Shown one piece after another: positions 948 through 23,471 of a stretch of DNA of 64,000 nucleotides. Origin of the DNA: Stappia stellulata (GTDB lineage: Bacteria > Pseudomonadota > Alphaproteobacteria > Rhizobiales > Stappiaceae). The stretch lies in contig NZ_JAIVMF010000009.1 of NCBI RefSeq assembly GCF_020176715.1, forward strand, positions 113,916 through 177,915. Reading direction: 5' to 3'. The position numbers were made by a program, and so were the translations under genes. Numbering within the stretch: the stretch's first letter is position 1; each line of letters begins with the position of its first letter. The notes beneath the pieces are model-generated. The model had not been told where the DNA came from and ran no database searches. It saw nothing but the letters and a program-made list of their open reading frames with translations.

Positions 948-1139
948 CAGAATACTACCAATCTTCACAGGCGTCTTTCAAGGACCCGCGCGAAACAACT
1001 TTGCCTTTCCACCAGCCCGTGCACTCAAAAGCCACAGCTTTGGCCTGCGCGGCGGCGCGAACCTTGCCATGACGACGCAAAGTGGACGATAATTGGCTTT
1101 ATTGAGCCGGGATCGCCACACAGACCGACGGACGTGCCG

Positions 1140-3283: not shown

Positions 3284-3378
3284 CCGGATGTCGCCATGAT
3301 CTCCTCATTCCCATCCCGAACCCGACCGCCCGGCGCAAGACCGGGGTTCACGCCTCACAAGAAACACGGAAAAAGAAA

Positions 3379-4155
3379 ATGAGCGCCACTGAAAGCCTGT
3401 TTCTCGATCAGGAGCCGATCGACACCAGCAACCCGACGCCGCGCTACATCCAGCTTGCCAACCGCCTGCGCGACATGATCCGCAACGGCTCGCTGAAACC
3501 GGGCGATGCGCTGCCGTCGGAACGCTCCATCGTCACGGCGACCAGCCTGTCGCGCGTCACCATCCGCAAGGCGCTGGAACTGCTGGTGCGCGAGGGGCTG
3601 CTGCACCAGAGGCACGGATCGGGCACTTATGTCAGCGAGGAGCCGGGGCGCATCGAACAGTCGCTCGGCGTCCTGACCGGCTTCAGCGAGGACATGGTGT
3701 CGCTCGGACATGTGCCCTCCGCCCGCTGGCTGCAGCGCAGCTACGCCCTGCCTTCTACCCAGGAGGCGATGACCCTCGGCCTGTCCCCGGGCGAGAAGGT
3801 GCTGCGCCTGCACCGGCTCAGGCTCGCCGACGACCTGCCGCTGGCGGTGGAGCTTGCGGTCGTCCCGGCCAGCCTGCTGCCCTCGATCGACCGGATCGGC
3901 GATTCGCTCTACGAGGCGCTCGCCGCCGCCGGAGCCCTGCCGGAAAAGGCCTTGCAACGCATGCACGCCTGCCGCCTGCCCGCCTTCGAGGCGGAGCTTC
4001 TCGGCGGCAAGGAAGGCGAGACCGCGCTCTACATCGAGCGCCTGTCGCGCACCGGCTCCGGCCGGACGGTGGAATTCACCCGCTCCTACTACAAGGGCGA
4101 CCGCTACGACTTCGTCGTCGAGCTGACGCTTCCCAGACCGCAGATGGACATGTGA
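3379..4155 (+). CDS. GntR/HutC-family transcriptional regulator with UTRA domain
   Basis: A 258-residue regulator. Residues about 20-90 form a GntR winged helix-turn-helix (RLRDMIRNGSLKPGDALPSE, then LSRVTIRKALELLVREGLL and GSGTYV). Residues about 105-250 are a UTRA effector domain ending in the usual RTVEFTRSYYKGDRYDF pattern. HutC-type members beside nag genes (NagQ, NagR, DasR) sense GlcN6P or GlcNAc6P. The start at 3379 follows a GGAAAAAG stretch, and the stop overlaps the SIS-protein start (TGATG). It probably controls this locus and perhaps the divergent murQ, with the inverted repeat at 933-947 as a candidate site. Confidence 0.9.
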   Translation: MSATESLFLDQEPIDTSNPTPRYIQLANRLRDMIRNGSLKPGDALPSERSIVTATSLSRVTIRKALELLVREGLLHQRHGSGTYVSEEPGRIEQSLGVLTGFSEDMVSLGHVPSARWLQRSYALPSTQEAMTLGLSPGEKVLRLHRLRLADDLPLAVELAVVPASLLPSIDRIGDSLYEALAAAGALPEKALQRMHACRLPAFEAELLGGKEGETALYIERLSRTGSGRTVEFTRSYYKGDRYDFVVELTLPRPQMDM

Positions 4156-5207
4156 TGACAGGCACCGCCACCACCCGGCTGAGACAGGAAACCGGCGAGA
4201 TCCCGGACCGGGTCGCAGCACAGGTCGCGCAGCGCCGGGACGACTTCGCGCAGGCCGGCGCCGCCTTGAGGCGCCACGACCCGCAGATGCTGGTCACCGT
4301 GGCGCGGGGCTCCTCCGATCATGCCGCAACCTATTTCAAGTATCTCAGCGAGATGACGGCCGGGCGCCCCGTCGCCTCCATCGGCCCGTCGATCTCCTCG
4401 GTCTACAAACGGACCCTGCACCTCGGCGGCGCGGCCTGCCTCAGCGTCTCGCAATCGGGGCGCAGCCCGGATCTCACCGCGTTTCAGGACATGGCCCGCC
4501 ACGCCGGCGCGCTGACCCTTGCGCTGGTGAACACCGTCCCCTCGCCGCTTTCGCAGGGCGCGGATCTCGCCATCGACATCGGCGCCGGCCCGGAGCAGGC
4601 GGTCGCCGCCTCCAAGTCCTACGTGTGTTCGCTGTCGGCGATGGCCGGGCTCGTCGGCGCCTGGACGCAAAGCCAGGCGCTGGAAACGGCCCTTTCCGCC
4701 ACGCCGGACCGGCTCGGCGAGGCGCTTTCCTGCGACTGGTCGGCGCTGGTTCCCGCCGCCTGCCATGCCCGCTCGATCTATGTGATCGGCCGCGGTCCGG
4801 GCTTCGCGATTGCCCAGGAGGCAGCGCTGAAGTTCAAGGAAACCTGCCAGATCCATGCGGAAAGCTACAGTTCCGCCGAGGTGATGCACGGACCGATCCA
4901 GCTGGCCGCCAACGGCCTCGTCGCGCTTGTCTTTCTAAGTCGCGACGAAGCGCGCGCCGGGCTTCTGGACGCGGTGGCAAGGCTTGCCGCCTCCGGCGCG
5001 CGCGTCTTCGTCGCCGATCCGCTTGGCGAGGTGCAAGCCGAGCGCCAGGCGATCGCCCCGCTGCCCTGCGTCGCCGCACCCGATCCCCTGCTCGATCCGC
5101 TGTGCCAGATCACCTCGTTCTACCGCTTTGTCGAACATCTTGCCGGCGCGCTCGGCTTCGACCCGGATGCGCCGCAACTGCTGAAAAAGGTCACGGAAAC
5201 ACTATGA
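4155..5207 (+). CDS. Double-SIS glucosamine-6-phosphate deaminase-like protein (NagB-II / AgaS type)
   Basis: A 350-residue protein with two SIS sugar-isomerase domains and no glutaminase domain, so it resembles the isomerase half of GlmS. Domain 1 has TVARGSSDHAATYFKYL near residue 55 and SVSQSGRSPDL near 97. Domain 2 has YVIGRGPGFAIAQEAALKFKE near 210, then HAESYSSAEVMHGP. Proteins of this build beside nagA and a GntR gene act as class II GlcN6P deaminases, giving Fru6P and ammonia. The start ATG overlaps the gntR stop by one base. It completes the GlcNAc6P to GlcN6P to Fru6P route together with NagA. Confidence 0.86.
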   Translation: MTGTATTRLRQETGEIPDRVAAQVAQRRDDFAQAGAALRRHDPQMLVTVARGSSDHAATYFKYLSEMTAGRPVASIGPSISSVYKRTLHLGGAACLSVSQSGRSPDLTAFQDMARHAGALTLALVNTVPSPLSQGADLAIDIGAGPEQAVAASKSYVCSLSAMAGLVGAWTQSQALETALSATPDRLGEALSCDWSALVPAACHARSIYVIGRGPGFAIAQEAALKFKETCQIHAESYSSAEVMHGPIQLAANGLVALVFLSRDEARAGLLDAVARLAASGARVFVADPLGEVQAERQAIAPLPCVAAPDPLLDPLCQITSFYRFVEHLAGALGFDPDAPQLLKKVTETL

Positions 5208-5217
5208 CGGGGGCATC

Positions 5218-6363
5218 ATGAGCGGAGGAACCGCGCTTCTCGCGCGCGCCATTTTCGACGGGGACCGACTGGTCCCCGACAGCGCCCTGCTGATCGAGGA
5301 GGGGCGCGTGCGCGCGATCGTTCCCGTTTCGGAAATCCCCTGCGACGCGGAGCGCATGGACACGCAGGCCGCGCTCCTGTGCCCGGGCTTCGTCGACTGG
5401 CAGGTCAACGGCGGCGGCGGCGTGCTGTTCAATGAAACCCCGACCCGGGAGGGCATTCGCGCAATCGCCGCCGCCCATGCCCGCTTCGGCACGACGACCC
5501 TCCTGCCCACGGTGATCACGGATGCGCCCGAGGTCTCGGCCGCCGCCGCGCAAGCCGTCGCCGAGGCGATCGCCGACGGCGACCCGGCGGTCGTCGGGGT
5601 CCATTTCGAGGGACCGCATATCTCGCTGGAGAAATGCGGCGTTCACGACCGAGGTTTCATCCGCCCGCTCACGCGCGAGGATCATGACCGGCTGGCCCGC
5701 GCCGATCTCGGCACCGTGGTTGCCACGGTCGCACCGGAAAACGCGTCGCTCGAGGACATTCGCACGCTGTCCCGGGCGGGCGTGCATGTCAGCCTGGGGC
5801 ACAGCAACGCCGATTTTGCCACGGCGAACGCCGCTTTCAGGGCGGGCGCCCAGTCGGTCACCCATCTCTTCAATGCCATGAGCGGACTGCATCATCGCGA
5901 TCCCGGACTGGCGGGCGCGGCGCTGTCCAGCGCGCATGTCTATTGCGGACTGATCCCGGACGGCCACCATGTGCATCCGGCAATGCTCGATCTCGCCCTG
6001 CGCGCGGCCGGGCACCGCCGGATCACGCTCGTCACCGACGCGATGTCGTCGGTCGGCCACGCGGACGACCGCTTCGAGCTGAACGGGCGCACCGTGGTCC
6101 GGGAGAACGGTCGCCTCACCATTGCCGACGGCACGCTCGCCGGCTCCGATCTCGATATGATGTCCGGCGTGCGGATCATGGCCGATGCCTGCGGCGCGCC
6201 GTTTCACGACGTGCTGCGCATGGCGTCGCGCTGTCCCGCCCAGATGCTCGGCCTGCACGATCGCGGCCACCTGCGCCCCGGCGCGCGCGCCGACATCCTC
6301 GCGCTCGACGCGGAGCGAACCCTGATATCGGTGTGGATTGCCGGCGACCGACAGGAGCGCTGA
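5218..6363 (+). CDS. nagA: N-acetylglucosamine-6-phosphate deacetylase
   Basis: NagA removes acetate from GlcNAc-6-P to give GlcN-6-P in the cytoplasm. The 381-residue protein shows the amidohydrolase-fold landmarks in order: PGFVDWQVNGGGG (residues 56-68), VGVHFEGPHIS near 128 with the metal-binding glutamate, VSLGHSNAD near 192, SVTHLFNAMSGLHHR near 213, IPDGHHVHP near 245 and the catalytic-aspartate region LVTDAMSSVG near 270. The length is normal. It starts 10 bp after the SIS gene, so the gntR, SIS and nagA genes form an operon. It ends convergently 55 bp from the ABC ATPase gene. Confidence 0.95.
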   Translation: MSGGTALLARAIFDGDRLVPDSALLIEEGRVRAIVPVSEIPCDAERMDTQAALLCPGFVDWQVNGGGGVLFNETPTREGIRAIAAAHARFGTTTLLPTVITDAPEVSAAAAQAVAEAIADGDPAVVGVHFEGPHISLEKCGVHDRGFIRPLTREDHDRLARADLGTVVATVAPENASLEDIRTLSRAGVHVSLGHSNADFATANAAFRAGAQSVTHLFNAMSGLHHRDPGLAGAALSSAHVYCGLIPDGHHVHPAMLDLALRAAGHRRITLVTDAMSSVGHADDRFELNGRTVVRENGRLTIADGTLAGSDLDMMSGVRIMADACGAPFHDVLRMASRCPAQMLGLHDRGHLRPGARADILALDAERTLISVWIAGDRQER

Positions 6364-8370: not shown

Positions 8371-8644
8371 GCGCGCCCCCCGAAACGCCGGGGCCGCAGC
8401 CCACCACACGGCACAGCCTGCGCAGGCAATGGCGCGCTCCGCAACCGGAGTGTCACGCCCCGCGATTTTGTCTGATAGGATCGATTTGCTGCGATTGCCG
8501 ACACGCCGGACTTGTCCTTTACTGGTACCCTCGAAACCGCGAACATCTTGTAAATGGTATTCAGGTGGACTAGCATAACAGCCTAAGCTCGACACCGGCA
8601 AGGCGGGCATTCCAGAATTGTATCTAGAGGGGAGTTTGGGGTTC
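8371..8644. other. Divergent intergenic region between ABC ATPases and the solute-binding protein gene
   Basis: These 274 bases are lower in GC than the flanking genes and must hold the promoters of both halves of the ABC transporter. No convincing coding sequence was found. A TGGACTAGCATAACAG stretch near 8562 loosely resembles the repeat in front of murQ (TGGTCTGTATAACAG on minus), but with a one-base length difference, so it is only a weak operator candidate. Confidence 0.4.
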
Positions 8645-10153
8645 ATGGACAGTCTGCGCAAATCCTTCATCGCATCCAGCACCGCGCTCGCGTTCGGCCT
8701 GTCCGTCGCGGCGCACGCGGCCCCGCTGGAGGTCGCCGTCGACAGCTCGCCGTCCGGTCTCGATCCGCATATCGTGACCGCCTTCTCCTCCTTCCAGATC
8801 ATCGATGGAACGATCTACGAGGGGCTGACGGCGCTCGACCCGGACCTCAACATCGTGCCCGGCCTTGCCAGCGCCTGGGAGATTTCCGAGGACAAGAAGA
8901 CCTACACGTTCACCCTGCGCGAGGGCGTGACCTTCCACAGTGGCGGGGCGATGACCTCCGCCGACGTGGCCGCCAGCCTCAAACGCGTGATGGATGAAGC
9001 AACCGGCTCGCCGCTCGCAAGCCGCCTTGCCGCGATCGACACCATCGAGACACCGGACGACAAAACCGTCGTCGTCAAGCTGACGGCGCCGTCGGCACCG
9101 CTTCTGTCCTCGCTGACCACCATCGCCATCGTCCCGGCGAAATACGCCGGCGACACCGAGACGCTGCAGCGCGCGCCGGACGGAACCGGCGCGTTCAAAT
9201 TCGTCGAATGGCAGCCGAATGTCGCCATCCGCCTGGAGGCGAACGACGGCTACTGGCAGGACGGCCTGCCGAAGCTCGAGGGCGTCAACTTCAACATCGT
9301 GCCGGAAGCGGCGACCCGCCAGGTCGGCCTGACGAGCGGGCAATACCACATGCTGCCCAACACCGACGCGGTGACGGCGCTGCAGATGCAGTCGCAGCCG
9401 AACATCAAACTGCAGGACACGCTGGAGCTGGCCTATTCGCTGACCGGCCTGAATGTCACCCGGCCGCCGCTCGACAATGCCAAGGTGCGCGAGGCGCTGA
9501 ACTACGCGATCAACCGCGACGACCTGGTGCAGGCCGCGCTCTTCGGCGCGGGCGTGCCCGGCGGACCGCTGTCGCCGGCGCTCAAGGGCTTCGCGACCCC
9601 GACCAACGAGCTGGCCTGTTTCACCCCCGACCCGGAAAAGGCCAAGGCACTGCTCGCCGAGGCCGGGGTGACCACCCCGGTCGAGCTTGAGCTGCTGGTC
9701 CTGCCGCGCGACGACACCAAGGCGATGGCACAGGTCATCCAGCAGCAGCTCGCCGCGATCGGCGTCAACCTGACGCTGGACATTCCCGAGATCGGCCAGT
9801 TCGTGCAGGACTGGCGCAATTCCGAGTTCGACATGTTCGTGTCGCTGAACTCGGGAACGATCGAGCCGGACGACTATTTCTACCGCACCTTCCGCACCGG
9901 CGGCTCGACCAATGTGTTCAAATATTCCAACCCCGAGCTCGACGCGCTGCTCGACGCGGGACGCGAGGAAACCGCCGTCGAGGGACGTCGCGACATCTAC
10001 AAGAAGGTGCAGGCGACGCTCGCCTGCGACGGGCCGGTGCTGTTCCTCGCCTACGGGCAGCTCTACACCGCGATGCGCGAGGCGGTGGAGGGATACCAGA
10101 TCTATCCCAATCGCTCGCTCGGATCGCTGAAGTCCGTCACGCTCGGCAACTGA
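8645..10153 (+). CDS. ABC transporter periplasmic solute-binding protein, family 5 (peptide / glycoconjugate type)
   Basis: A 502-residue SBP_bac_5 protein. I used the ATG at 8645 because it gives a clean Sec signal peptide (MDSLRKSFIASSTALAFGLS, cleavage after AHA near residue 28) and has a GAGGGGAG Shine-Dalgarno upstream; a TTG at 8618 is less likely. Family features are the VDSSPSGLDPHIVTAFSSF start, YEGLTALDPDLNIVPGLA, and TYTFTLREGVTFHSG. It binds the substrate in the periplasm and hands it to the permeases. Its neighbours suggest peptidoglycan-derived sugars or muropeptides, but the pocket cannot be read to a ligand by eye. Confidence 0.92.
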   Translation: MDSLRKSFIASSTALAFGLSVAAHAAPLEVAVDSSPSGLDPHIVTAFSSFQIIDGTIYEGLTALDPDLNIVPGLASAWEISEDKKTYTFTLREGVTFHSGGAMTSADVAASLKRVMDEATGSPLASRLAAIDTIETPDDKTVVVKLTAPSAPLLSSLTTIAIVPAKYAGDTETLQRAPDGTGAFKFVEWQPNVAIRLEANDGYWQDGLPKLEGVNFNIVPEAATRQVGLTSGQYHMLPNTDAVTALQMQSQPNIKLQDTLELAYSLTGLNVTRPPLDNAKVREALNYAINRDDLVQAALFGAGVPGGPLSPALKGFATPTNELACFTPDPEKAKALLAEAGVTTPVELELLVLPRDDTKAMAQVIQQQLAAIGVNLTLDIPEIGQFVQDWRNSEFDMFVSLNSGTIEPDDYFYRTFRTGGSTNVFKYSNPELDALLDAGREETAVEGRRDIYKKVQATLACDGPVLFLAYGQLYTAMREAVEGYQIYPNRSLGSLKSVTLGN

Positions 10154-10223: not shown

Positions 10224-11177
10224 ATGGTGTTTCTCAGACGGCTTCGCGGACGCCTCATCGACCTCGCCTTCGTGATCGCGGGCGTCTCGGTGCTGGTCTT
10301 CGGCTTCATCCGGATGATCCCGGGCGACGCCGTGGCGATCATGCTGGGCGCCAATGCGGAAGTGACGCCCGAGCGGATCGCGGCGGTGCGCACCCGCCTC
10401 GGGCTCGACCTTCCGATCCACGAACAATATGTCGCCTGGCTGTCGGACGTGCTGCGCGGCGACTTCGGCGTCTCGATCTGGACCGGCAAGCCGGTGATCG
10501 ACGAGATCGCCGCCCATGTCTGGCCGACGCTTCAGCTGACGCTGCTGGCGCTTGCCACTGCCGTGATCCTCGCCATTCCGCTCGGCATCCTGATGGCCCG
10601 GCTGCGCGGACGGCGCGGCGAGGCGCTGGTGCAGGCCGGCTCTGTGGTCGGCCTCACCGTCCCGCCGTTCTGGCTCGGCATCATTATGATCCTGACGCTG
10701 TCGGCCGTCGCGCCGGGTGTGCAGATGCTCGGCTATGTGCCGTTCTCGCAGGATCCGCTCGGCAATCTGGCGCGGCTGATCCTGCCGGCCATCGCGCTCA
10801 GCCTGCCGATCATGGCGAACCTTGCCCGCCTGCTGCGCTCCACCCTGCTGGAGGCAATGCAGCAGGACTATATCCGCACCGCGCGGGCCAAGGGCGTGCC
10901 GGCCCGGCGGGTGCTCTACCGCCACGCCTTGCGCAATGCGCTGATCCCCTTCATCACCAGCGTCGGCATCATGGCCGGCTACCTGCTCGGCGGCGCCATC
11001 GTGATCGAGCAGGTCTTCGCCATTCCCGGCCTCGGCCGGCTGATCCTCGGCGCCATCGCGGAGCGCAACTATCCGCTGATCCAGGCGACGATCCTGCTGG
11101 TGACCTGCAGCTTCGTCTTCGTCAACTTCGCCGTCGACGTCGTCTATGCACTGATCGACCCGAGGATTTCGGAATGA
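10224..11177 (+). CDS. ABC transporter permease (OppB/DppB-type)
   Basis: A 317-residue inner-membrane protein with about six hydrophobic helices; the first is near residues 8-30 (LAFVIAGVSVLVFGFIRMIP). The N-terminal half keeps the DppB pattern with GDAVAIMLG and a long periplasmic loop (RLGLDLPIHEQYVAWL). The cytoplasmic EAA loop is DYIRTARAKGVPARRVLYRH near residue 215. It pairs with the downstream permease, whose start overlaps its stop (ATGA). Confidence 0.94.
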   Translation: MVFLRRLRGRLIDLAFVIAGVSVLVFGFIRMIPGDAVAIMLGANAEVTPERIAAVRTRLGLDLPIHEQYVAWLSDVLRGDFGVSIWTGKPVIDEIAAHVWPTLQLTLLALATAVILAIPLGILMARLRGRRGEALVQAGSVVGLTVPPFWLGIIMILTLSAVAPGVQMLGYVPFSQDPLGNLARLILPAIALSLPIMANLARLLRSTLLEAMQQDYIRTARAKGVPARRVLYRHALRNALIPFITSVGIMAGYLLGGAIVIEQVFAIPGLGRLILGAIAERNYPLIQATILLVTCSFVFVNFAVDVVYALIDPRISE

Positions 11178-12034
11178 GCGCCCCGGCAAGCCCCCCGCAA
11201 GCGCAGGCCCGCAGCAAACGCAGACCTCTCCTGTCGCTCTATTCCGTCGCGCTGACGATGATCGTCATCCTCGTTCTGGTCGCGCTCGCCGCACCGCTGA
11301 TCGCGCCCTACGATCCGCTGGGGCAGGACATCCTGCAGCGGCTCAAGGGACCGTCTTCCGCCCATTGGCTCGGCACCGACCAACTCGGCCGCGACGTTCT
11401 CTCGCGGATCATCTACGGCTTGCGCTCCTCGCTCTCGATTTCGGCGAGCGCCGTCTTCGTCGCCTTTCTCGGCGGCAGCGTGCTCGGCCTGCTGGCGGCC
11501 TACTACCGGGGCTGGACCGAACGGATCATCATGCGGCTGATGGACGTGCTCTTCGCCTTTCCGGTGATGCTGCTCGCCATTGGCGTCATCGCGGTGATGG
11601 GCCCAGGCGCGGTGCCCACGGCGGCTGCCATCGCCATCGTCTACACGCCGATCTTCGCCCGCCTGTTGCGCGGTCCGGCGCTTGTCGTGGCCGAGAGCGA
11701 TTTCGTTCTGAGCGCGCGTTCCATCGGCGCCTCGGACCTGCGCATCATCCTGCACCACATCCTGCCCAATCTGGTCAGCGTCATCCTGGTGCAGTTCAGC
11801 CTGCTGTTGTCGTCGGCGATCCTGGTGGAGGCGTCGCTGTCGTTTCTGGGCCTCGGCACCCAGCCGCCGACGCCGTCGCTCGGCATGATGCTGTCGGAAG
11901 GCCGCAATTTCCTGTTTCTCGCCCCCTGGGCTGCGATTTTTTCCGGCGTGGCAATCCTGATCGTCGCCTTCGCGCTGAACCTTTTCGGCGATGCGCTGCG
12001 CGACGATCTCGACCCGAGGCTGCGCCAATCCTGA
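11174..12034 (+). CDS. ABC transporter permease (OppC/DppC-type)
   Basis: A 286-residue inner-membrane permease. It has the OppC N-terminal helix (VALTMIVILVLVALAAPLIA), the HWLGTDQLGRDVLSRIIYG family signature near residues 60-80, and the EAA loop DFVLSARSIGASDLRIILHH near 180. The C-terminus (FALNLFGDALRDDLDPRLR) is typical. It overlaps the upstream permease by 4 bp and is followed after 48 bp by the ubiquitin-like gene on the same strand, so these may share one transcript. Confidence 0.94.
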   Translation: MSAPASPPQAQARSKRRPLLSLYSVALTMIVILVLVALAAPLIAPYDPLGQDILQRLKGPSSAHWLGTDQLGRDVLSRIIYGLRSSLSISASAVFVAFLGGSVLGLLAAYYRGWTERIIMRLMDVLFAFPVMLLAIGVIAVMGPGAVPTAAAIAIVYTPIFARLLRGPALVVAESDFVLSARSIGASDLRIILHHILPNLVSVILVQFSLLLSSAILVEASLSFLGLGTQPPTPSLGMMLSEGRNFLFLAPWAAIFSGVAILIVAFALNLFGDALRDDLDPRLRQS

Positions 12035-12082: not shown

Positions 12083-12319
12083 ATGGACGACAGACGCGAA
12101 ATCACCATCAACCGCCGCCGCTTCGACCGGGACGACGGCGTCGAGCCGACGATGACCGCCGACGATCTCGCCGCACTTGCCGGGATCCCGGCGCAAAACG
12201 CCATCGTCGAGCGGGAGACCGGACCGCGCACCTATGAAGCGCTCGAGCGGGGCGCAGCACTTCCCATGCGCTCGGGCATGCATTTCCTCGTGACCCGCAA
12301 GTTCGTCATGGGCGGCTAG
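12083..12319 (+). CDS. Ubiquitin-like beta-grasp protein ending in Gly-Gly (multiubiquitin-type single domain)
   Basis: This 78-residue protein has a GGGAGAG ribosome-binding site and sits 27 bp upstream of an E1-type gene. Its order of elements is ITINRRRFD at the N-terminus, the helix-forming TADDLAALAGIP near residues 33-44, then YEALERGAALPMRSGMHFLV and a C-terminal FVMGG ending exactly at Gly77-Gly78. That layout matches my recollection of the bacterial multiubiquitin domain family, here as one unit. An exposed diglycine tail is what E1 enzymes adenylate, so no processing protease would be needed. Whether it is conjugated to targets or acts as a sulfur carrier is unknown. It lacks the PPVSGG-type tail of MoaD. 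Confidence 0.8.
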   Translation: MDDRREITINRRRFDRDDGVEPTMTADDLAALAGIPAQNAIVERETGPRTYEALERGAALPMRSGMHFLVTRKFVMGG

Positions 12320-12346
12320 CCCGCCGCATCCGCACTGGAGGCCCGA

Positions 12347-13705
12347 ATGCACCCCCGCGACGAGACCGCCAGGACCCTGCTGCGCCTTGGCAAGACCGAG
12401 TTCGACATGCTCAGCGCCGACGCGCTGCCCGATTCCCCGGCGCACGACTGGACGGCGACGCTTGCCGTGACGCGCGCGCAGGACGCAAGCGTGTGGACGC
12501 TGCGCCCGCTCCATCTTGGACTGCCCGACGCGGCAGAGGGGACCAGAGCCGAAATCCGCACACTGGCAATCGACAGCGAAGACGCCTTTCGCGCCGCCCT
12601 CGACGCGTGGAGCGATGCAGCGGATGCCGACGACGGCGGCGTCGGGGTTCGCCTGCTGATCGGCATCGCGCTGCAGGGGCCGCCGGAAATCGCCGCGCGC
12701 TGGCGCACGTCCGACGGCTGGCGCGCAATCGACCGCGTGTTCCTCGAGGGCCAGCCCGGCGCGCGCCTTTGGAAGGATGGCACGCCACCGCCGCCGGACG
12801 ACCTGCCCCCCGAGCGGGTCGCGCGATTCACCAGTTCCTTCGGCGTCGAGGCCTATCAGCGCCTGCGGCGATCCACCGCTGTCGTGATCGGCGCCGGCGG
12901 CACCGGATCGGTCGCGATCCCGATGCTGGCGCGGGCCGGCGTCGGCAAGATCGTCATCGTCGATTCCGATCTGATCAGTCCGTCGAACCTGGAGCGCACC
13001 CACGCAAGCTTCCCAGAACACATCGAAACGCCGACGTTGAAGGCGGCCCTTGCCCGCGACCACGTGCGCCGCATCGATCCGGACATCGAGGTGATCGCCT
13101 TCGACGGACGGCTGCCGCAACGCGCCATCGTGGAGGAAGTCGCGCAGGCGGACGTGCTGCTCGGCTGCACCGACCAGCACACCAGCCGGCTGGTGGTCAG
13201 CGACATGGCGCGCCGCTATCTGGTGCCGGCCATCGACTGCGGCGGGCTGATCGAAGGGGCGAACGGCCTCGTCACCGGGCAGATCATCCAGCTGGTGCTG
13301 TTTCGTTCCCACGACCCCTGCCCGCGCTGCCGGGGCATGGTCGATGATATGCGCATGCGCCAGGAGCTGATGTCGCCCGAGGAGCGACAGGCACTGCTGG
13401 AGGCGGCCGGCGACCAAGCGCCGCCACCGGAAGCGCATGAGATCCCGCAGATCGACACGGTCGGCTATATCACCACGGTGAGCGGCACGCTGGCGGCGGG
13501 CTATGCCATCGGCTGGCTGACCGGGCGATTCGAGCCGCCGTTCGAACGCATGCAGATGAACCTCATCGCCGAGTGTCTCGACGTGACCGACCGGCCGCAG
13601 CCGGTGGACGAGGCCTGCAGTTGCCAGGACGAACGCGGGCTGGGAGATTCCGGAGAACTGCCCTTCGCCATCCCGGCGCATTGGGGCGCGGCGCGCCGCC
13701 TGTAA
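12347..13705 (+). CDS. E1-like ThiF/MoeB-family adenylyltransferase with a novel N-terminal domain
   Basis: A 452-residue protein starting after a good GGAGG site. Residues about 170-410 form an E1 adenylation domain: VVIGAGGTGSVAIPML (179-194), IVDSDLISPSNLER (204-217) with the arginine of the NLxR motif, GCTDQHTSRLVVSDMA (273-288) and PAIDCGG (294-300). Four cysteines, CPRC (325-328) and CSC (424-426), could bind zinc as in MoeB/ThiF. The N-terminal ~165 residues have no cysteine and no JAMM HxH motif, so they are neither a catalytic E2 nor an active JAB peptidase; I do not recognise them. It almost certainly activates the ubiquitin-like protein encoded just upstream. Confidence 0.85.
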   Translation: MHPRDETARTLLRLGKTEFDMLSADALPDSPAHDWTATLAVTRAQDASVWTLRPLHLGLPDAAEGTRAEIRTLAIDSEDAFRAALDAWSDAADADDGGVGVRLLIGIALQGPPEIAARWRTSDGWRAIDRVFLEGQPGARLWKDGTPPPPDDLPPERVARFTSSFGVEAYQRLRRSTAVVIGAGGTGSVAIPMLARAGVGKIVIVDSDLISPSNLERTHASFPEHIETPTLKAALARDHVRRIDPDIEVIAFDGRLPQRAIVEEVAQADVLLGCTDQHTSRLVVSDMARRYLVPAIDCGGLIEGANGLVTGQIIQLVLFRSHDPCPRCRGMVDDMRMRQELMSPEERQALLEAAGDQAPPPEAHEIPQIDTVGYITTVSGTLAAGYAIGWLTGRFEPPFERMQMNLIAECLDVTDRPQPVDEACSCQDERGLGDSGELPFAIPAHWGAARRL

Positions 13706-13717: not shown

Positions 13718-14725
13718 TCAGTCCGCCTCGAAGCAGCTGCGCAGATATTGCAGGGAGCGCGCCTGCGCCCGGTTGTCGCGATGGCTTTCGCCCGCGCCCG
13801 GCTCGACTTCGAGCACGAGGCCGGTGACGGCTGTGCTGCCCAGCGCATCGGGGAAGCGGTCCCAGGGCAAATTGCCGGTGCCGACCTCAAGGCCTTCGGT
13901 CACCAGCGCGTCGAGCGGGATTTCTGGCGGACATGCGGCGGCGTCGGGATAGAAAAGACTGTCGCTGACATGCAGCCACGGCATCTCGCCATCGACGAAA
14001 TCGAAGGGATGAAGCCGCTCGCAGCGCTCAAGGTCCTCCTCAAGCACGGCGGAAAACCGGGGATCGTCCTTCGTCGCTGCCGGATGCGCCCGGCGCCAGT
14101 TGAACAGATTGGACGACAGCGTCGCATGGGCGGTGTCGACGAAGGGCGCGACATTGGCCAGCCCCTCTCGGGTGACAAAAGCGCGAAACTCCGCGATCTC
14201 CCAGGGGAAGAAATGATCGAGCGGGCCGGCGAGAAACGACCGGCCGTCGCGCGGCAGCAGCGAATAGTGGCCTACGTTTTCCACCAAAAGCAGGATGTCG
14301 GGGGCCAGACGGGCCAGACGCGCGATTTCCGCGTTGAAGCCGGCGGTTGCCTCGGGCCGGTTCGCCCGTTGCGGAGCGTCACCGTAGACAAGCCCCCAGT
14401 AGCGATGGATCACGACGCGGCCCGCCCCCGCCTCGGCGGCAAACCGCAGGGCATCCTCCACCTGATCGGCGTCGAAGTCCTGCTCCGTCACCCTTGCGAC
14501 CTTCTGCAAGGGCACATGTACGGTGAGATCGAGCGGGCCGTGGACCTGGCGCAGCCGGTCGAGATTTTCCAAGCACACCCGCCTCGCCGCCGCGTCCTCC
14601 AGATCGCGCGGGCCGAAGGTGTGCAGTTCAAGCACGACCGGAAGTCCGGCCGCCCGCAGCGCAATCGCCCGGTCGGCAAGCTGGGCTGCGTCCATCACGG
14701 CGGCCTTCAAGGCGTAGTGCGGCAT
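13718..14725 (-). CDS. TIM-barrel protein of the xylose isomerase-like / AP endonuclease 2 superfamily
   Basis: A 335-residue protein starting at the ATG at 14725 behind a GGAGAC stretch. Alternating strands carry acidic and histidine residues in the pattern of sugar-phosphate isomerase/epimerases: VVLELHTFG near residue 32, GRVVIHRYWG near 105, ILLLVENVGHYSLLP near 145, FVDTAHATLSSNL near 195, and GLVLEVEPGAGES near 310. Such proteins isomerise or epimerise keto-sugars, or cleave AP sites. The substrate is unknown. It converges on the E1 gene with 12 bp between stops and lies downstream of the CoA-transferase gene on the same strand. Confidence 0.75.
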   Translation of the reverse strand: MPHYALKAAVMDAAQLADRAIALRAAGLPVVLELHTFGPRDLEDAAARRVCLENLDRLRQVHGPLDLTVHVPLQKVARVTEQDFDADQVEDALRFAAEAGAGRVVIHRYWGLVYGDAPQRANRPEATAGFNAEIARLARLAPDILLLVENVGHYSLLPRDGRSFLAGPLDHFFPWEIAEFRAFVTREGLANVAPFVDTAHATLSSNLFNWRRAHPAATKDDPRFSAVLEEDLERCERLHPFDFVDGEMPWLHVSDSLFYPDAAACPPEIPLDALVTEGLEVGTGNLPWDRFPDALGSTAVTGLVLEVEPGAGESHRDNRAQARSLQYLRSCFEAD

Positions 14726-14800
14726 GAGGGCGGGTCTCCAGTGGGCGCGCCTCCCGCTTGGGCGGGGGGCCTCAGTCTCTCTATACTGAGGCACTGCGCG

Positions 14801-15994
14801 TCACAGACAATGCGTTTCCTGGATGGCGGCAAATTCCTCGTCGCCGATGCCGAGCCAGTCGCCCAGAACCTCGCGGGTATGCGCGCCCAGCGCCGGCGGG
14901 CCGCGATGAACGCCGGGCGGCGTTGCCGACATCTTGATCGCCGAGGCCGGCACGGGGACCGTGCCGCCGGCTGGATGGGGCACATCGACGATCTGTCCGC
15001 GGTGGGCGAGATGAGGATTTTCCACGACATCGGCAATGCTTGCCACCGGCTCGCAGGGGACGCCGACCGCATGCAGCACGGCGAGGATCGATTGCGCGTC
15101 ATGTTCCAGGCCCCAGGCGTCGATGATCGCCTCGAGCTCGGCGACATTGGCGTTGCGGGCGAAGAAGGTCGAGAAGCGGTCGTCGCCCGAAAGCTCGGGC
15201 CTGCCCATCGCCTCGCAGAAGCGCACGAAATGATGATCGTTGCCGGCGACGACATAGACCCATTTGTCGTCGCGGCTCTTGAAGCAATGCGAGGGCGAGA
15301 GATAGCGGTCGCGGTTGCCGAGCCGCGTCTGCTCGGTCCCGAAGAGCTTCGATTCGCCGATGGCCGTCGTCAGCATCGACAAGGCACTGTCCATCAGCGT
15401 CGCCTCGACCACCTGCCCCTTGCCGGTTTCGTGCCGCGCCTGCAGAGCCGCGAGCGCCGCGATGCTCGCGTAAAGCGCGGTTGAATAATCCGACACGAAA
15501 ACGCCGGCCATGGTCGGCGCGCCGTCGGCCGGGCCGGTCAGCGTCATGATGCCGCTATGCGCTTGGGCGGCCCCATCAAAACAGGGATGGGAGGCCATCG
15601 GCCCGTCCTGACCGAAGCCGGAAATGCGCACGAGGATGAGCCCCGGATTTTCCGCCGACAGGACATCGTAGCCGCAGCCCATCTTCTCCAGCGTGCCGGG
15701 GCGAAAATTCTCGATCAGGATGTCGGCCTTGGCCGCAAGCCGGCGCAATAGCGCCTGACCGTCGGGATTGCGGAAGTCGAGGGTCAGGCTGCGCTTGTTG
15801 CGATTCGCCCCCATGAAGAACAACGTCTCGCCGGCGACCATCTCGCCGACCCTGCGCCCCTCCTCGCCGCCGTCGGCACGCTCCACCTTCACAACATCCG
15901 CACCAAGATCTCCAAAGACCTGACCACAGAAAGGCCCAGCAATATACCTGGATAAATCAAGTACTTTTATATTATTCAGAGATTTATTTTGCAT
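14801..15994 (-). CDS. Class III CoA-transferase (CaiB/BaiF family)
   Basis: A 397-residue family III CoA-transferase. I chose the ATG at 15994 because MQNKSLNNIKVLDLSRYIAG matches the usual family N-terminus; an ATG at 16012 would add six residues. Landmarks are GPFCGQVFGDLGADVVKVE, GANRNKRSLTLDF and IENFRPGTLEKMG, and the likely acyl-accepting aspartate is Asp140 in HPCFDGAAQAHSGIM. The family moves CoA between carboxylic acids without an energy cost. The first ~25 codons are noticeably AT-rich against a GC-rich body. It is divergent from the MoaD-like gene, so the 16.0-kb gap holds both promoters. Substrates are unknown. Confidence 0.85.
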   Translation of the reverse strand: MQNKSLNNIKVLDLSRYIAGPFCGQVFGDLGADVVKVERADGGEEGRRVGEMVAGETLFFMGANRNKRSLTLDFRNPDGQALLRRLAAKADILIENFRPGTLEKMGCGYDVLSAENPGLILVRISGFGQDGPMASHPCFDGAAQAHSGIMTLTGPADGAPTMAGVFVSDYSTALYASIAALAALQARHETGKGQVVEATLMDSALSMLTTAIGESKLFGTEQTRLGNRDRYLSPSHCFKSRDDKWVYVVAGNDHHFVRFCEAMGRPELSGDDRFSTFFARNANVAELEAIIDAWGLEHDAQSILAVLHAVGVPCEPVASIADVVENPHLAHRGQIVDVPHPAGGTVPVPASAIKMSATPPGVHRGPPALGAHTREVLGDWLGIGDEEFAAIQETHCL

Positions 15995-16055
15995 ATCGCT
16001 GTTTTCTTTCATCGGACATTCAAGTACAATTCCCCGAAATTCAGGAGGATTTGCG

Positions 16056-16307
16056 ATGAAGGTTAAATTCCATACGTGGCTCAAGACCAAGACCGGCTGT
16101 GCCGAGGAAGAGATCGACCCGCCCGCGCATGTGCGCACCATCGCGGACCTGACCGCGTTTCTCTCCGAACGCCATCGGGAAGCGGCGCCGCTCTTCGCGA
16201 TGCCGCAGGCGCTGCGCTATGTGGTCGACCGGCGCTATGTCGATGCGGACCATGAGCTGTCCCCCTCGCAGGTCGTTGAAATCTATCCGCCGGTGACCGG
16301 CGGCTGA
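16056..16307 (+). CDS. MoaD/ThiS-like sulfur-carrier protein ending in PPVTGG
   Basis: An 83-residue beta-grasp protein with an AGGAGG site 7 bases before the ATG. It starts MKVKFHTWLKTKTGC, has a RTIADLTAFLSERH helix near residues 27-40, a YVDADHELSPSQVVEIYPP strand region and a C-terminal TGG. MoaD proteins typically end in PPVSGG, so this is close to molybdopterin synthase small subunit, but no moaE lies in the window. After adenylation by the E1 encoded opposite, its terminal glycine would carry a thiocarboxylate. Its 3' end overlaps the antisense E1 gene by 25 bp. It could serve molybdopterin or another thiolation pathway. Confidence 0.85.
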   Translation: MKVKFHTWLKTKTGCAEEEIDPPAHVRTIADLTAFLSERHREAAPLFAMPQALRYVVDRRYVDADHELSPSQVVEIYPPVTGG

Positions 16308-17104
16308 GCCATGGCGCCTTCGTCCGGCACGGGTGCCGCCCCGCCGCAGCAGGGACAGCCCGCGCGGCGGGCGAGCGGTATTTCGCTGAATCCGGCGGAC
16401 AGGCCGTCGTAGAGGACGATCCGCCCGCTGAGACCGTCTCCGACGCCGAGGATCTCCTTCACCACCTCCATCGCCTGCAGGCCGCCGATCACCGTAAGCA
16501 CCGGACCGGCCACACCCACCATCGAACAGGTCGGCGTCACCTCCGGCGGGAGCGGGCTGGGGTAGAGACAGCGGAAGCACGGGTTGGCGCCGCCCCGGAA
16601 GGCAGCGAAAGTGGTGACCGTGCCCTCCGTCATTTGCGCCGCGCCGCTCACCAGGGTCCGGCCCAGCGCGAAACAGGCCGCGTGCAGGACATCGCGGGTG
16701 GCGAAATTGTCGGTGCAATCGGCGACGATGTCGTAGCCGGCGACAAGATCCGCCGCATTCGCCTCGGTGACGGGAAACATGTGCTCCACCACCTCGATAT
16801 GCGGATTGCCGCGCCGCAGCCGTGCTGCCGCACTCGCGGTCTTCGGCATGTCGAGATCGTCCATGGTGTGAATGACCTGGCGGTGCAGGTTGGAGACCTC
16901 GACGAAATCGCCGTCCGCCACGCCGATAAGGCCAACGCCCGCCGCCCCAAGATACTGCAGGACCGGCGCGCCGAGGCCGCCGGCGCCGACAACGAGCACG
17001 CGCGCCGCCTTGAGGCGAAGCTGGCCGGCCTCCCCCCATTCGGGCAGCACCATCTGGCGCTGGTAGTAGGCCTGTTCCTCGATTTCCAGGGCGGTCGCGC
17101 TCAT
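16283..17104 (-). CDS. MoeB/ThiF-type E1 adenylyltransferase for the MoaD-like carrier
   Basis: A 273-residue protein with the full MoeB pattern: VVGAGGLGAPVLQYLGAAGVG (residues 38-58), GDFVEVSNLHRQ (65-76), KTASAAARL, ADCTDNFATRD (128-138), and zinc cysteines CFRC (176-179) and CPCC (250-253). Cys193 in PTCSMVGVAGP corresponds to the conserved MoeB cysteine. It would adenylate the C-terminal glycine of the MoaD-like protein. There is no rhodanese domain; the SufE protein encoded just upstream, overlapping by 4 bp, may deliver the sulfur. Its own C-terminus, PPVTGG, copies the carrier tail because of the shared palindrome, and whether that matters is open. Confidence 0.9.
   Translation of the reverse strand: MSATALEIEEQAYYQRQMVLPEWGEAGQLRLKAARVLVVGAGGLGAPVLQYLGAAGVGLIGVADGDFVEVSNLHRQVIHTMDDLDMPKTASAAARLRRGNPHIEVVEHMFPVTEANAADLVAGYDIVADCTDNFATRDVLHAACFALGRTLVSGAAQMTEGTVTTFAAFRGGANPCFRCLYPSPLPPEVTPTCSMVGVAGPVLTVIGGLQAMEVVKEILGVGDGLSGRIVLYDGLSAGFSEIPLARRAGCPCCGGAAPVPDEGAMAQPPVTGG
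16287..16303. repeat. Palindrome inside overlapping gene ends; encodes PPVTGG on both strands
   Basis: CCGCCGGTGACCGGCGG has 8-bp arms (CCGCCGGT / ACCGGCGG) around one central base. Plus-strand codons read Pro-Pro-Val-Thr-Gly-Gly at the end of the MoaD-like protein, and minus-strand codons read the same six residues at the end of the E1. The central base is the wobble position of the valine codon on both strands. The stem could also act as a bidirectional transcription stop, although no T-tract follows. Confidence 0.9.
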
Positions 17105-17541
17105 GACAGCTCCGCCCGCTCCGCGGCGAGCGCCGCGCCATAGCCGTGTATGTGCTTCAGGAGGCGGTGAAAGCCGTTGGCGCGGCTTGGCGCCAACAGC
17201 TCGATCAGCCCCGCCTCGCGCAGCCGGTCCGGCGGGGTCGCGGCGACCTCGCCAAAACTTCGCCCGTCGTAGAGACTGACGGCGATCGACAGAAGGCCGC
17301 GCATGATGCGGGCGTCGGAATCAGCGGCGACGCGAACCGTCCCGGTGTCTTGGTCGGCCCTCAGGTCCAGCCAGACACGGGACTGACAGCCGTGAAACAG
17401 CGTATCATCGGTCTTGAGCGCCGGGTCCATGGCCGGCAGATCGCCGGCCATCTCCATCAGGGCAATCACCGGTCCGCCGGATCCGCTCCCCGGCCGGAGC
17501 CGGTCTGCAAGGCTTGCCATATAGTCCTCGATCGAGGTCAT
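17101..17541 (-). CDS. SufE-like cysteine-desulfurase sulfur acceptor
   Basis: A 146-residue SufE/CsdE protein. The catalytic cysteine is Cys52 in LFHGCQSRVWL, matching the GCQSxVW motif that takes persulfide from a cysteine desulfurase. Other matches are DDTLFHGC, RIMRGLLSIAVSLYDGRSFGEV and the ending NGFHRLLKHIHGYG. No sufBCD or desulfurase gene is next to it, so it must draw on one elsewhere. Co-transcription with the MoeB-like E1 (ATGA overlap) suggests a dedicated relay of cysteine sulfur to the MoaD-like thiocarboxylate. Confidence 0.88.
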   Translation of the reverse strand: MTSIEDYMASLADRLRPGSGSGGPVIALMEMAGDLPAMDPALKTDDTLFHGCQSRVWLDLRADQDTGTVRVAADSDARIMRGLLSIAVSLYDGRSFGEVAATPPDRLREAGLIELLAPSRANGFHRLLKHIHGYGAALAAERAELS

Positions 17542-17579: not shown

Positions 17580-18707
17580 TCAGGCCGTCGCGCGCGCCTG
17601 CGCGAGGACCCCGCCGCCAAGCGGCGCCTTCACGCCCGTGGTGAGCGGAAAGCTGAGCGGCAGGCCGCGCTTGGAGCGCATTGCCAGAAAGGCGAAACAC
17701 TCCGCCTCCACCGCATCGCCGCGGAAGCCGACGCTTTCGGCCGGCACCACCTCCGCGCCGGTGCGTTTCGCGATCTCGCGCATCATCACCGGGTTCTTGC
17801 GTCCGCCGCCGCATACGACGATGCGCCGCGGGCGCGACGGCAACAGGTCGAGCGCCTTTCCGACCGACCCGGCCGTGAAGGCGGTGAGAAGGGCCGCCCC
17901 GTCCTCCAGGCTCTCCCCGTCCGCCATGGAGGCGGAGAAATCGAAGCGGTCGAGCGACTTGGGATAGGGCGCGGCGAGGAAGGGGTGCTCGAGCAGCGTG
18001 CGAAGCTTCGCCTCGTCGACGGTGCCGCGCGCGGCAATCGCGCCGTCCTCGTCCATGTCGCCGCCACTGTGCGCGAAGATCCAGTCGTTCACCGGCGCGT
18101 TCGCCGGACCGGTGTCGAAGGCGACCATGTGATCGCCGTCGCACCAGGTGAGATTGGCGACGCCGCCGAGATTGAGCACCGCCGTGTCGCTGCCGGCGTT
18201 GATCTTCCTCAGCGCCGCCTTGTGATAGATCGCCGACAGCGGCGCGCCGTGTCCGCCCGCGTCCATGTCGGCGGAGCGGAAGTCGTAGACGACATCGGTG
18301 CCGACGATGTCCGCCATCATCGCGCCGTCGCCGAGCTGCCGCGTGTACCCGCGCCGCCCGCCCTCAGGCGCCTGATGCAGGACCGTCTGCCCGTGGAAGC
18401 CGACGGCGGAGATGTCGGAAGCCGCATAGCCGTGCCTCTCGAGAAAGCCCTTGACCGCAAGCGATTGCGCCTCGGTGAGAGCCTGTTCCGCCTCGCGGAA
18501 GATCTCCGGTTCCGGCCCCTTGAACTGCCACGCGAGCGCCGCCTGGAAGGTGCGTCCGAGAAGCTCGCGGATGTCGACCGGATAGGGCGCGAGCTCCCAC
18601 GGCCCGAAGGCATCGATCGTCTCGCCGTCGGTCTTGATCATGGCGATGTCGATGTATCCGTCGAGGACGGTTCCGGTCATCAGTCCGATTGCCCAGGCAG
18701 GCTTCAT
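17580..18707 (-). CDS. anmK: Anhydro-N-acetylmuramic acid kinase
   Basis: AnmK opens 1,6-anhydroMurNAc and phosphorylates it to MurNAc-6-P in peptidoglycan recycling. The 375-residue protein starts [20 protein letters not shown] behind AAGGAG. It keeps [17 protein letters not shown] near residue 110, [22 protein letters not shown] near 130, [13 protein letters not shown] near 180, [16 protein letters not shown] near 200 and [14 protein letters not shown] near 300. Two usual spots differ: GTVLDG instead of GTSLDG, and [11 protein letters not shown] instead of the common DTGPGNxLID. It lies between the radical SAM and sufE genes on one strand. It links this cluster chemically to the MurQ locus 17 kb away. 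Confidence 0.92.
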
Positions 18708-18732: not shown

Positions 18733-19713
18733 TCAGGCTGCGGCCGCGCGTTTGTTCTGGATGTGCTGCGGGAAGATGCGGCCCGCCGGCTTGCGGCAGT
18801 CCTTGCAGTGGGACACGGCGGCGCGCCCGTGGTCGGCAAGCCGGCAGCGGAAGGCGAGCGCGCCGGCAAGCACCCGGTCGACGCCGTCGCGCAGGAGATT
18901 GCCGACGATCCCGGCCTGGCCGTGGCTGATCACGCAGATCGAGACGTCGCCGTTGGGCGCGACGCAAAAGACGTGGCCCGCCCAGAAGCAGGGCAGCTGC
19001 GGAACGGGAAGATGCGGCAGCACCTCCTCCGACAGCATGCGGTCGAGCGTGCCGTCGCTTTCCAGGCTCTCGATCTTGTCGATGGCCTGTTCCGCGCCGC
19101 CGGGCAGGAGCGGCTTGACCTTCTCGTACTGGTCGACGCGTTCAAGCAGCTTGAGAAAGCGCGGATCATAGTCCTCGATCGGCTCGTCCAGATCGATCTG
19201 GTAGACGCCGACGCGCAAGCCCGGCCGATCCCTGGCGCGGTCGAGCAGGATTTCCAGCCCGCGCAGGGACTTCTCGAAGTTGCCCTCGCCCCGGTTGAGG
19301 TCGTGCGACAGGCGGTTGCCGCCATCGAGCGAGACGAAGATCTTGTGGTCGAAATCGACCGAGACGATCTCCTCGACCCGCTTCTCGGTCAGCATCGTGC
19401 CGTTGGTGTGCCACTGAAGCGGAATGGTCGGCATGACCTCGCCGACGGTCGCGAGCAGCTCCGCGAAACGCGGGTTCATCAAGGGCTCGCCGCGCCAGTT
19501 GAGATGGATGGTCTGCACATCGACCGAGGCGCTGTCGCGCAGGTCGCAGAGCATGCGCCGGAGATCCTCCGGCGTCATGTCGTCCTTGCCGTGGCTAAGC
19601 TTGGTGTAGCACAGCCGGCAGGCGAGATTGCAGCGGGTGGTGGGGTCGAGCCAGAGCCAGACGGGCGATCCGTCGATGGCGGAACTCTCGGCGCGCGGAG
19701 TGTGATCGGTCAT
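18733..19713 (-). CDS. Radical SAM protein with SPASM-like auxiliary cluster region
   Basis: A 326-residue radical SAM enzyme. The 4Fe-4S/SAM motif is CNLACRLC (Cys28, Cys32, Cys35; CX3CX2C). It is followed by [14 protein letters not shown], the GxPxxN-like element, and [10 protein letters not shown] and [10 protein letters not shown]. The C-terminal third has [19 protein letters not shown] and HCKDC, typical of SPASM/twitch extra Fe-S clusters. Such enzymes modify peptides or carbohydrates by radical chemistry. It starts after GGGAGC and lies 26 bp upstream of anmK. The 108-bp AT-rich gap before it could hold an internal promoter. The substrate is unknown; a sugar or sugar-nucleotide fits the neighbours. 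Confidence 0.88.
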
Positions 19714-19821: not shown

Positions 19822-20853
19822 TTAAGACGATGCACGCGGATAATGGATCGGCACGCACCAATGGTTGGCGGCCACCCAATCGGTGTTCGGCAGCTCCACC
19901 GGGTGCTTCATGATGCGGTGGCAGGGCAGCTCGTAGACCTTGCCGGCCCCGCCCTCGATCGGATCGAACACGATGTATTTGTAGAAGCCGCTCTCCATGC
20001 CGTCGGGCAGGCGCAGCCGGTTTGGGTAGGCGGGATCGAGAGTGTCGCGCGCATAGGCGCGCTTCCAGGACACGATGTCCTTCAGTCGCCGGGTCTGCAC
20101 CACCCCCATGGCAGCGGTGAATTCGTCGATCCGGTGGTTCATCCCTTCGATCCGGTAGCCGGACCCGCGACCGTAATCGCGGAACGAGCGGGCGTGGCGG
20201 GCAAGCTCCGGGTTCGCGGTGACCAGCATGCCGCCTTCGCCCGTGGAGATCGTCTTGGTGGGATAGAAGGAATAGATGCCGGCATCGCCGAAACTGCCGG
20301 CGGCGCGCCCGTTCCAGCGGGCGCCATGGGCATGGGCGCAATCCTCGATCAGCCAGATGCCCTTGTCCCGGCAATAGGCCGCGATCTTCTCGATGTCGAA
20401 GGCGATATGCCCGCCGACATGAACGATCCAGGCCGCCTTGGGCCGATGGCGCTCGGCCGTCTCCACAAAGTCGGCGAAAGACCCACAAAGATCCTCCCGG
20501 TTGCAGTCGTAGAAGATGACGGACGCGCCGGACCATTGCGCCGAGCGCGGCGTGGCCAGAAAGGTGTTGGAGGGCGACAGCACCGTCTCGCCGGTCACGC
20601 CGATGAAGTCGAGGGCCGCCAGCGCGCCGCCGGCCCAATTGTTGAAGGCCACCGCCTCGAGCCCGGTTTCATCCGCCCAGGCCGCCTCGAAGGCCCGCGT
20701 GTGCACGCCGTCGCTCCAGCGGTTGGAGCGCAGGATATCGCGCCACAGACCGAGGAGTTCCTCCTCGTCGCGCGGATCGAAGGCGATGGAAAACGGCAAC
20801 GGCGCAGGCCGTTCGATCCCGGTGTCCACAGCCTGTGCCTGCGGCTCGCTCAT
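19822..20853 (-). CDS. DegT/DnrJ/EryC1-family PLP aminotransferase (sugar aminotransferase type)
   Basis: A 343-residue fold-type I aminotransferase of the sugar aminotransferase family. The PLP lysine is Lys200 in SFYPTKTISTGEGG, and the pyridine-contacting aspartate is Asp171 in IEDCAHAHG. VLSPSNTFLATPRSAQWSG near residues 91-109 and VHVGGHIAFD near 144 are family motifs. These enzymes put an amino group on a keto-sugar nucleotide, or dehydrate deoxysugars. Translation is coupled to the upstream flavin monooxygenase by a 4-bp overlap. That pairing suggests amine installation and oxidation on one sugar, which is inference. Confidence 0.9.
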   Translation of the reverse strand: MSEPQAQAVDTGIERPAPLPFSIAFDPRDEEELLGLWRDILRSNRWSDGVHTRAFEAAWADETGLEAVAFNNWAGGALAALDFIGVTGETVLSPSNTFLATPRSAQWSGASVIFYDCNREDLCGSFADFVETAERHRPKAAWIVHVGGHIAFDIEKIAAYCRDKGIWLIEDCAHAHGARWNGRAAGSFGDAGIYSFYPTKTISTGEGGMLVTANPELARHARSFRDYGRGSGYRIEGMNHRIDEFTAAMGVVQTRRLKDIVSWKRAYARDTLDPAYPNRLRLPDGMESGFYKYIVFDPIEGGAGKVYELPCHRIMKHPVELPNTDWVAANHWCVPIHYPRASS

Positions 20854-23461: not shown

Positions 23462-23471
23462 GAACGCGTCC

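Follow-up and report, generated by a model that had tools for sequence, protein, structure and literature searches.

The window, by which we mean the whole 64,000-nucleotide stretch of Stappia stellulata DNA analysed here, carries on its forward strand two adjacent genes encoding a ubiquitin-like protein (Ubl), UblA (12083..12319), and an E1-type activating enzyme, E1A (12347..13705), which belong to a conserved eleven-gene cluster. UblA is 78 residues long, ends ...RKFVMGG immediately before the stop codon, and contains a single lysine (K73) and no cysteine. Its gene begins 48 bases beyond the oppC stop codon and is separated from the E1A gene by 27 bases, with a purine-rich stretch upstream of both start codons. 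Among the matches listed, MGG is the exact C-terminus of all 16 close UblA relatives, and the predicted structures of both proteins are of high confidence (predicted local distance difference test scores of 91.2 for UblA and 94.6 for E1A), which together argue that these are not chance open reading frames. UblA itself scores 15.7 bits against the Multi_ubiq family (PF14452), under the cut-off of 24.5; most of the UblA relatives listed carry this family and the Caulobacter orthologue scores 30.9, above the cut-off. The assignment of UblA to the beta-grasp proteins of this family is backed by its predicted structure and its relatives, and both length and model indicate one Ubl domain rather than a tandem array. 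A first-pass annotation of this DNA had described a single-domain, multiubiquitin-type beta-grasp protein ending exactly in GG and followed by a dedicated E1, and the reading frames, model and relatives agree with it; the contrary findings that it had envisaged, namely lack of a beta-grasp fold, of a conserved GG or of joint occurrence with the E1, did not arise.

The cluster was compared across 18 alphaproteobacterial loci, from the genome of the window and six more of the same genus (the named members of which are Stappia), Chelatococcus, two Bosea, Sphingopyxis, four Nitrospirillum, Caulobacter S45, Terrarubrum G577 and G618. Nine genes are found at all 18, encoding E1A, a second Ubl (UblB), a second E1-like enzyme (E1B), a SufE-like protein, a CaiB-family coenzyme A (CoA)-transferase, an AnmK-family kinase, a radical S-adenosylmethionine (SAM) enzyme, a DegT-type aminotransferase and a TIM-barrel protein; UblA and a flavin monooxygenase are each found at 17, the remaining locus being cut at a contig end (L024 and G006, respectively). 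Gene order and strand are reshuffled between loci, most of all in Terrarubrum, and reshuffled order with constant content argues for functional linkage. Literature searches found no description of this cluster. It is also rare: at E ≤ 1e-50, E1A was found in 7 of 87 genomes of the window's own family (all in one genus), 1 of 397 of its order (the window's own) and 4 of 82 of the Nitrospirillum family. The radical SAM enzyme used as query at E ≤ 1e-40 matched 4 of 298 genomes, all four with UblA and E1A, 1 of 385 genomes of the class (again the window's own) and 1 of 390 (G469, with UblA and E1A), and no close radical SAM relative without UblA–E1A was found in these three samples. Eight relatives outside the cluster (L029–L031 and L033–L037) have, of the cluster genes, only UblA and E1A.

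E1A is a protein of 452 residues in which a degenerate JAB domain (about residues 8–150, encoded at 12347..12796) is fused to an E1/ThiF adenylation domain (ThiF, residues 163–401; Pfam 127.6 bits, cut-off 28.1). The relatives examined were the best 120 of 486 for E1A and the best 120 of 865 for UblA; a set of distant ThiF proteins (L038–L063) was left out. The longer E1A relatives, mostly of about 484–530 residues, have an N-terminal JAB domain with an HxHP...S..D motif, and in Bosea this reaches the Prok-JAB Pfam model (27.7 bits, cut-off 25). At the corresponding ligand positions H, H, S and D the E1A of the window reads R, L, R and L, and no locus of the window clade retains both histidines and the aspartate. 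Within this dead clade (25 sequences, 275 pairs) the divergence of the JAB half is 3.2 times that of the E1 half, against 1.8 times in the alphaproteobacterial set with a live JAB (30 sequences, 407 pairs). In a tree built from the E1 domain only (75 rows), Caulobacter S45, whose JAB is also dead (R, R, R, D), is nested in the live clade, and the starred branches require at least two changes of JAB state. The absence of any JAB or other peptidase, as it was first described, is thus wrong in part, and the idea of a missing peptidase was rejected: a decayed JAB domain, its metal site lost, is part of E1A.

The state of the JAB domain is matched by the C-terminus of the Ubl. UblA ends exactly at GG at all nine loci with a dead JAB (the window, L064–L069, L019 and L026), and 15 of the 16 with a live JAB (L022, L023, L025, L027, L028, L032, L078, L081, L029–L031, L033–L035 and L037) have 2–11 residues beyond the GG; L024, where the contig end truncates the E1 and UblA lies beyond the available DNA, was excluded from these counts. 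The sole exception is L036, a Dehalococcoidia metagenome-assembled genome with an intact JAB motif whose Ubl (8966–9217) nevertheless stops exactly at GG. Further Ubl/E1 pairs, matched solely through contigs of the same length, lack the tail in 7/7 dead cases and have it in 7/7 live ones, two of the dead pairs repeating loci already counted, and a tail is present in 119/119 readable Ubl relatives among the best 120 of 865, the tail of the one other (P0153) being unreadable. Fisher tests of JAB state against tail give 4.9e-6 and 2.5e-9 with kin counted as independent rows. There are thus two independent co-losses of JAB and tail, plus one loss of the tail without loss of the JAB. The combination of a dead JAB with a tailed Ubl was not seen among these pairs, and this asymmetry is as predicted for a maturation protease. 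As evidence from nature, the twofold paired loss points to Ubl maturation as the essential function of the fused JAB.

No E2-like gene lies between or beside UblA and E1A. A profile search with Prok-E2_E, which missed one (G473) of four outgroup genomes that have an E2-like gene at the locus, found no match in the window's own genome and none in 17 of the 18 cluster genomes; within that sensitivity the absence of an E2, as first noted, is borne out. The eighteenth genome (G010) has a separate E1-like match beside a Prok-E2_E match (120 bits) at C1:1624645-1625966, far from the cluster, which is likely to be an independent Ubl-type operon. In each of the eight non-cluster relatives an E2-like frame sits between the Ubl and the E1. 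Five of these frames match Prok-E2_E at 20.1–27.2 bits, one of them exceeding the 25-bit cut-off, and the remaining three (L030, L035 and L036) share a WQLASYHPHNGGG stretch, as judged by eye. No such gene is present at any of the eight cluster loci whose JAB is live and whose Ubl could be read, which indicates that the E2 was lost before the JAB.

The cysteines of E1A are those at 274, 298, 325, 328, 410, 424 and 426, with none between 328 and 410; across 103 relatives 298 is almost invariant and the cysteines at 274, 325, 328, 424 and 426 are fully so. By analogy with ThiF and MoeB, 325, 328, 424 and 426 would be zinc ligands. No conserved crossover-loop cysteine is found in E1A by the cysteine list and column conservation, on which this statement rests because the ThiF loop alignment scores negative. 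We note that residues 371–377 (window 13457–13477) form a TVGYITT crossover motif with a nearly invariant Tyr374. Tyr370 of BubCD, the subject of a Y370F entry title in the PDB, could not be placed on E1A, the alignment ending at BubCD residue 314 and a C-terminal profile finding no BubCD.

Kinship to BubA and BubCD, whose operons PMC12687455 presents as full conjugation cascades, and the E2-like frame kept by the non-cluster relatives would suit a mode of E2-less tagging derived from Bub-type conjugation, in which E1A alone would attach UblA to proteins and so regulate the importer or enzymes of the cluster. We consider this rather unlikely, given a Prok-E2_E search, blind to one of four expected positives, that gave no match in 17 of the 18 cluster genomes, an E1A without a conserved crossover-loop cysteine, a tag-removing JAB that is dead though the system persists, and constant neighbours that are metabolic or sulfur genes. 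The related bacterial systems are said in the same paper to act mainly against phages (PMC12687455), and the E1–E2 models of PADLOC do match E1A; these matches are limited to its E1 domain and are also obtained with E1B, and neither an E2 nor an active peptidase is present. A standard anti-phage system placed beside metabolic genes by chance is thus very improbable, and the linkage to the same genes at 18/18 loci in reshuffled order largely refutes it.

About 2.4 kb downstream of UblA–E1A lies the second Ubl/E1 pair, overlooked at first. UblB (16056..16307, +; 83 residues) is of the MoaD/ThiS-family sulfur-carrier type and ends PPVTGG; it reaches the ThiS family (38.3, cut-off 22.5) and misses the moaD equivalog TIGR01682 (45.7 against 66.15). 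E1B (16283..17104, −) is a MoeB-type adenylyltransferase that barely reaches the MoeB subfamily model PRK05690 (267.1 against 266) and misses the moeB equivalog TIGR02355 (212.2 against 376.55). Its Cys193, kept at 18/18 loci, presumably occupies the position of the crossover cysteine of ThiF/MoeB-type enzymes. A domain scan found no rhodanese domain on E1A or E1B. UblB and E1B converge, and their 3′ ends share a palindrome-like segment (window 16283–16307) that codes for PPVTGG on both strands. The PPVTGG of E1B was rejected as a functional tail, since Chelatococcus and G004, with a different frame, lack it; it is a by-product imposed by the convergent overlap: CCN CCN GTN ACN GGN GGN, once reverse-complemented and shifted by one base, again encodes PPVTGG. 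Next to E1B is the SufE/CsdE-like protein (17101..17520, −), whose Cys45 stands within GCQS at 18/18 loci, and on the other side of UblB is the type III CoA-transferase (14801..16012, −), a one-domain protein of the CaiB family (CoA_transf_3, 416 bits) with Asp175 at 17/18 loci, the eighteenth (L023) ending before that position. A ThiF-family enzyme and a nearby MoaD/MoeB-like pair might suggest a redundant sulfur-carrier set for molybdopterin or thiamine, for which we see hardly any likelihood: the 16 cluster genomes searched each have exactly three ThiS-family matches, one at UblB and two elsewhere, neither MoaE nor ThiG was found among the cluster genes scanned, and UblA is of the Multi_ubiq type.

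The remaining core genes encode enzymes of a different kind. The AnmK-family kinase (17580..18707, −) has Asp201 at 17/18 loci; an extra copy is present elsewhere in 15/18 cluster genomes, the other three, all Nitrospirillum, having none outside the cluster. In Caulobacter S45 its match (L026 16076-17290) is in two pieces around an unalignable middle within a single open frame, and this copy is possibly diverged or locally frame-shifted. The radical SAM/SPASM enzyme (18733..19713, −) carries a CNLACRLC motif with its cysteines at 18/18 loci, and among solved structures its nearest relatives, at modest E-values (best 3.7e-7), are cytosylglucuronate decarboxylase (BlsE), ChlB and BtrN. The DegT/DnrJ-type aminotransferase (19822..20979, −; start approximate) has the lysine of pyridoxal 5′-phosphate enzymes at 14/18 loci, four rows being too short, and its solved relatives are sugar and inosose aminotransferases. 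The flavin monooxygenase (20850..21983, −; start approximate) is an HsaA-like member of the acyl-CoA dehydrogenase family with 3-HSA hydroxylase (HsaA) as best solved relative, and the xylose-isomerase-like TIM-barrel protein (AP_endonuc_2; 13718..14794, −) has no sequence relative in the PDB at E 0.001. From these sequence likenesses, and with an N-acetylmuramic acid 6-phosphate etherase annotated in addition at the Terrarubrum locus, the scaffold acted on would be an amino sugar, perhaps of the muramic-acid type. A plasmid of Croceicoccus marinus (L084, 8794-26612) has a distant radical SAM relative (37 % identity) with an AnmK-like gene (42 %) and NagA-, GntR-, NagK- and NagB-like genes. 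Neither a Ubl nor an E1 is labelled there, and the arrangement suggests an older radical SAM–AnmK module.

To the left of UblA, on the same strand, are frequent companions of the cluster that are not part of its core: murA and the genes for a NagK-like kinase, a GntR/UTRA regulator, a NagB-II-type deaminase and nagA (1134..6363, +), followed by the lineage-specific oppA solute-binding protein gene (8618..10153, +) and the likewise lineage-specific oppB–oppC permease genes directly upstream of UblA (10224..12034, +). In the available DNA of the 18 loci we count nagA 13 times, the NagK-like gene and oppB 12 times each, the NagB-like, GntR and oppC genes 11 times each, and murA and oppA 9 times each. 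Some copies of murA sit just beyond the locus DNA, and a genome search places a MurA-type match near the cluster in 14/18 genomes. An inhibitor-resistant copy of MurA was considered and is not obvious, the loop cysteine (GGC[AS]IG), which we assume to bear on inhibitor resistance, being present in five readable sequences including that of the window, with the sixth cut short. No opp genes are labelled in the available DNA of the four Nitrospirillum, Caulobacter S45 and Sphingopyxis loci. The first-pass annotation had placed the Ubl pair near murQ, murA and nagA and had treated the importer as its defining partner. The latter two genes are confirmed and murQ was recognized by eye only, in a reading frame at the left edge of the window; that standing of the importer is not supported, with oppB labelled in the available DNA of 12/18 loci against 18/18 for core genes, and tagging of the importer was rejected as a core idea since the Opp genes are not constant. 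Beyond the cluster, genes for a ferredoxin reductase, an alcohol dehydrogenase, a tripartite ATP-independent periplasmic transporter, a cytochrome P450, a MarR regulator, an acyl-CoA ligase and an iron-type alcohol dehydrogenase (window 22235-33281) probably form a separate catabolic set.

We put at about one half the probability that UblA and E1A are an E2-free sulfur-carrier pair that does not serve protein tagging. An E2-free carrier role is favoured, with sulfur as the likeliest cargo, because the chemistry of thioacid cassettes fits the neighbouring genes; a sulfur carrier was among the first options offered for the pair and finds support here. In these cassettes a carboxylate is activated with CoA and a type III CoA-transferase moves sulfur from the carrier thiocarboxylate, and capped carriers require a protease that GG-exposed ones do not, according to PMC6006322. 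In intact-JAB relatives the JAB would trim the residues beyond the GG; a Ubl gene that ends at GG would make it dispensable and allow its decay. E1A is predicted to adenylate the UblA C-terminus, and the lack of a conserved crossover-loop cysteine suggests that activation stops at the acyl-adenylate, as in MoeB, with sulfur and not lysine as the acceptor. UblA would then take sulfur from the cluster SufE and pass it to a small molecule. The CoA-transferase would convert a carboxylate to a CoA thioester, in which one or both carriers would swap CoA for sulfur as in the thioplatensimycin and thioquinolobactin cassettes, and the AnmK, DegT, radical SAM, TIM-barrel and monooxygenase enzymes would act on an amino-sugar scaffold that is possibly derived from muramic acid.

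More tentatively, we suggest that a bacterial ubiquitination-type system lost its E2 and then its peptidase and became a sulfur carrier in addition to UblB; two ubiquitin-like carriers of different families would then feed one pathway to a thiocarboxylated, muramic-acid-type metabolite. If so, a ubiquitin-type modifier has been caught reverting to a sulfur carrier, the reverse of the usual evolutionary story. Several points weigh against a sulfur-carrier role for UblA. The JAB evidence comprises two independent events, with Fisher P-values that ignore kinship, and L036, with its live JAB and bare GG, means that tail loss need not entail JAB loss. UblA is closer to a conjugation-type family than to ThiS/MoaD, and need not be a second sulfur carrier because UblB and E1B already provide a carrier pair. 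No cysteine desulfurase was found among the cluster genes scanned. The CoA-transferase has one domain and is closest to succinate-glutarate-type enzymes, not to the two-domain PtmU4 type. An acyl-CoA synthetase gene is not core, being seen near the cluster only in the window (30216-32021, 14 kb away) and L018, several loci ending too early. Finally, according to PMC6006322, thioplatensimycin biosynthesis used capped carriers, not exposed-GG ones.

Alternatively, E1A might link the UblA C-terminus by an amide or ester to a small-molecule intermediate that is processed while tethered and then released, in the manner of amino-group carriers or MccB. The match to MccB is non-specific, because ThiF and MoeB outscore it in the same list, and the core genes include no obvious releasing hydrolase, the candidate JAB being dead at nine loci; we therefore think this improbable. 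With UblA–E1A fixed in a conserved metabolic cluster beside a sulfur-carrier pair, the interconversion of sulfur carriers and ubiquitin-like modifiers becomes directly testable, and the cluster points to an undescribed amino-sugar product, possibly sulfur-bearing.

Three known systems invite comparison. UblB and E1B share with the molybdopterin proteins MoaD and MoeB the ThiS family and the MoeB subfamily, although their equivalog scores lie below cut-off; UblB is additional to the two other ThiS-family proteins of the genome, and the cluster genes scanned include no MoaE. The UblA–E1A arrangement is that of the Bub-type operon (BubA, BubB, BubCD; class 6e), in which a multiubiquitin Ubl gene lies directly upstream of that for an E1 with an N-terminal JAB; the sequence alignment shows HSHP...S..D ahead of the E1 domain in BubCD and so marks it as such a fusion, and E1A matches BubCD structurally over its whole length. 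The single Ubl domain is within the range of one to three given for class 6e in PMC1779556, although tandem domains are usual. Operons of this kind showed no major association with metabolic enzymes in the survey of Iyer et al. (PMC1779556); here, in contrast, the pair sits in a metabolic cluster, has no E2-like gene, has lost the JAB metal site and has a Ubl with a bare GG. The cassettes for the thioacids pyridine-2,6-dithiocarboxylic acid, thioquinolobactin and thioplatensimycin combine, as here, a GG-ending Ubl, an E1-like enzyme and a type III (CaiB) CoA-transferase, and their carriers are either capped and cleaved or GG-exposed. The present cluster differs from them in its one-domain CoA-transferase, in having SufE in place of a rhodanese and no acyl-CoA synthetase in the core, and in joining two Ubl/E1 pairs of different families to partner enzymes of the amino-sugar type.
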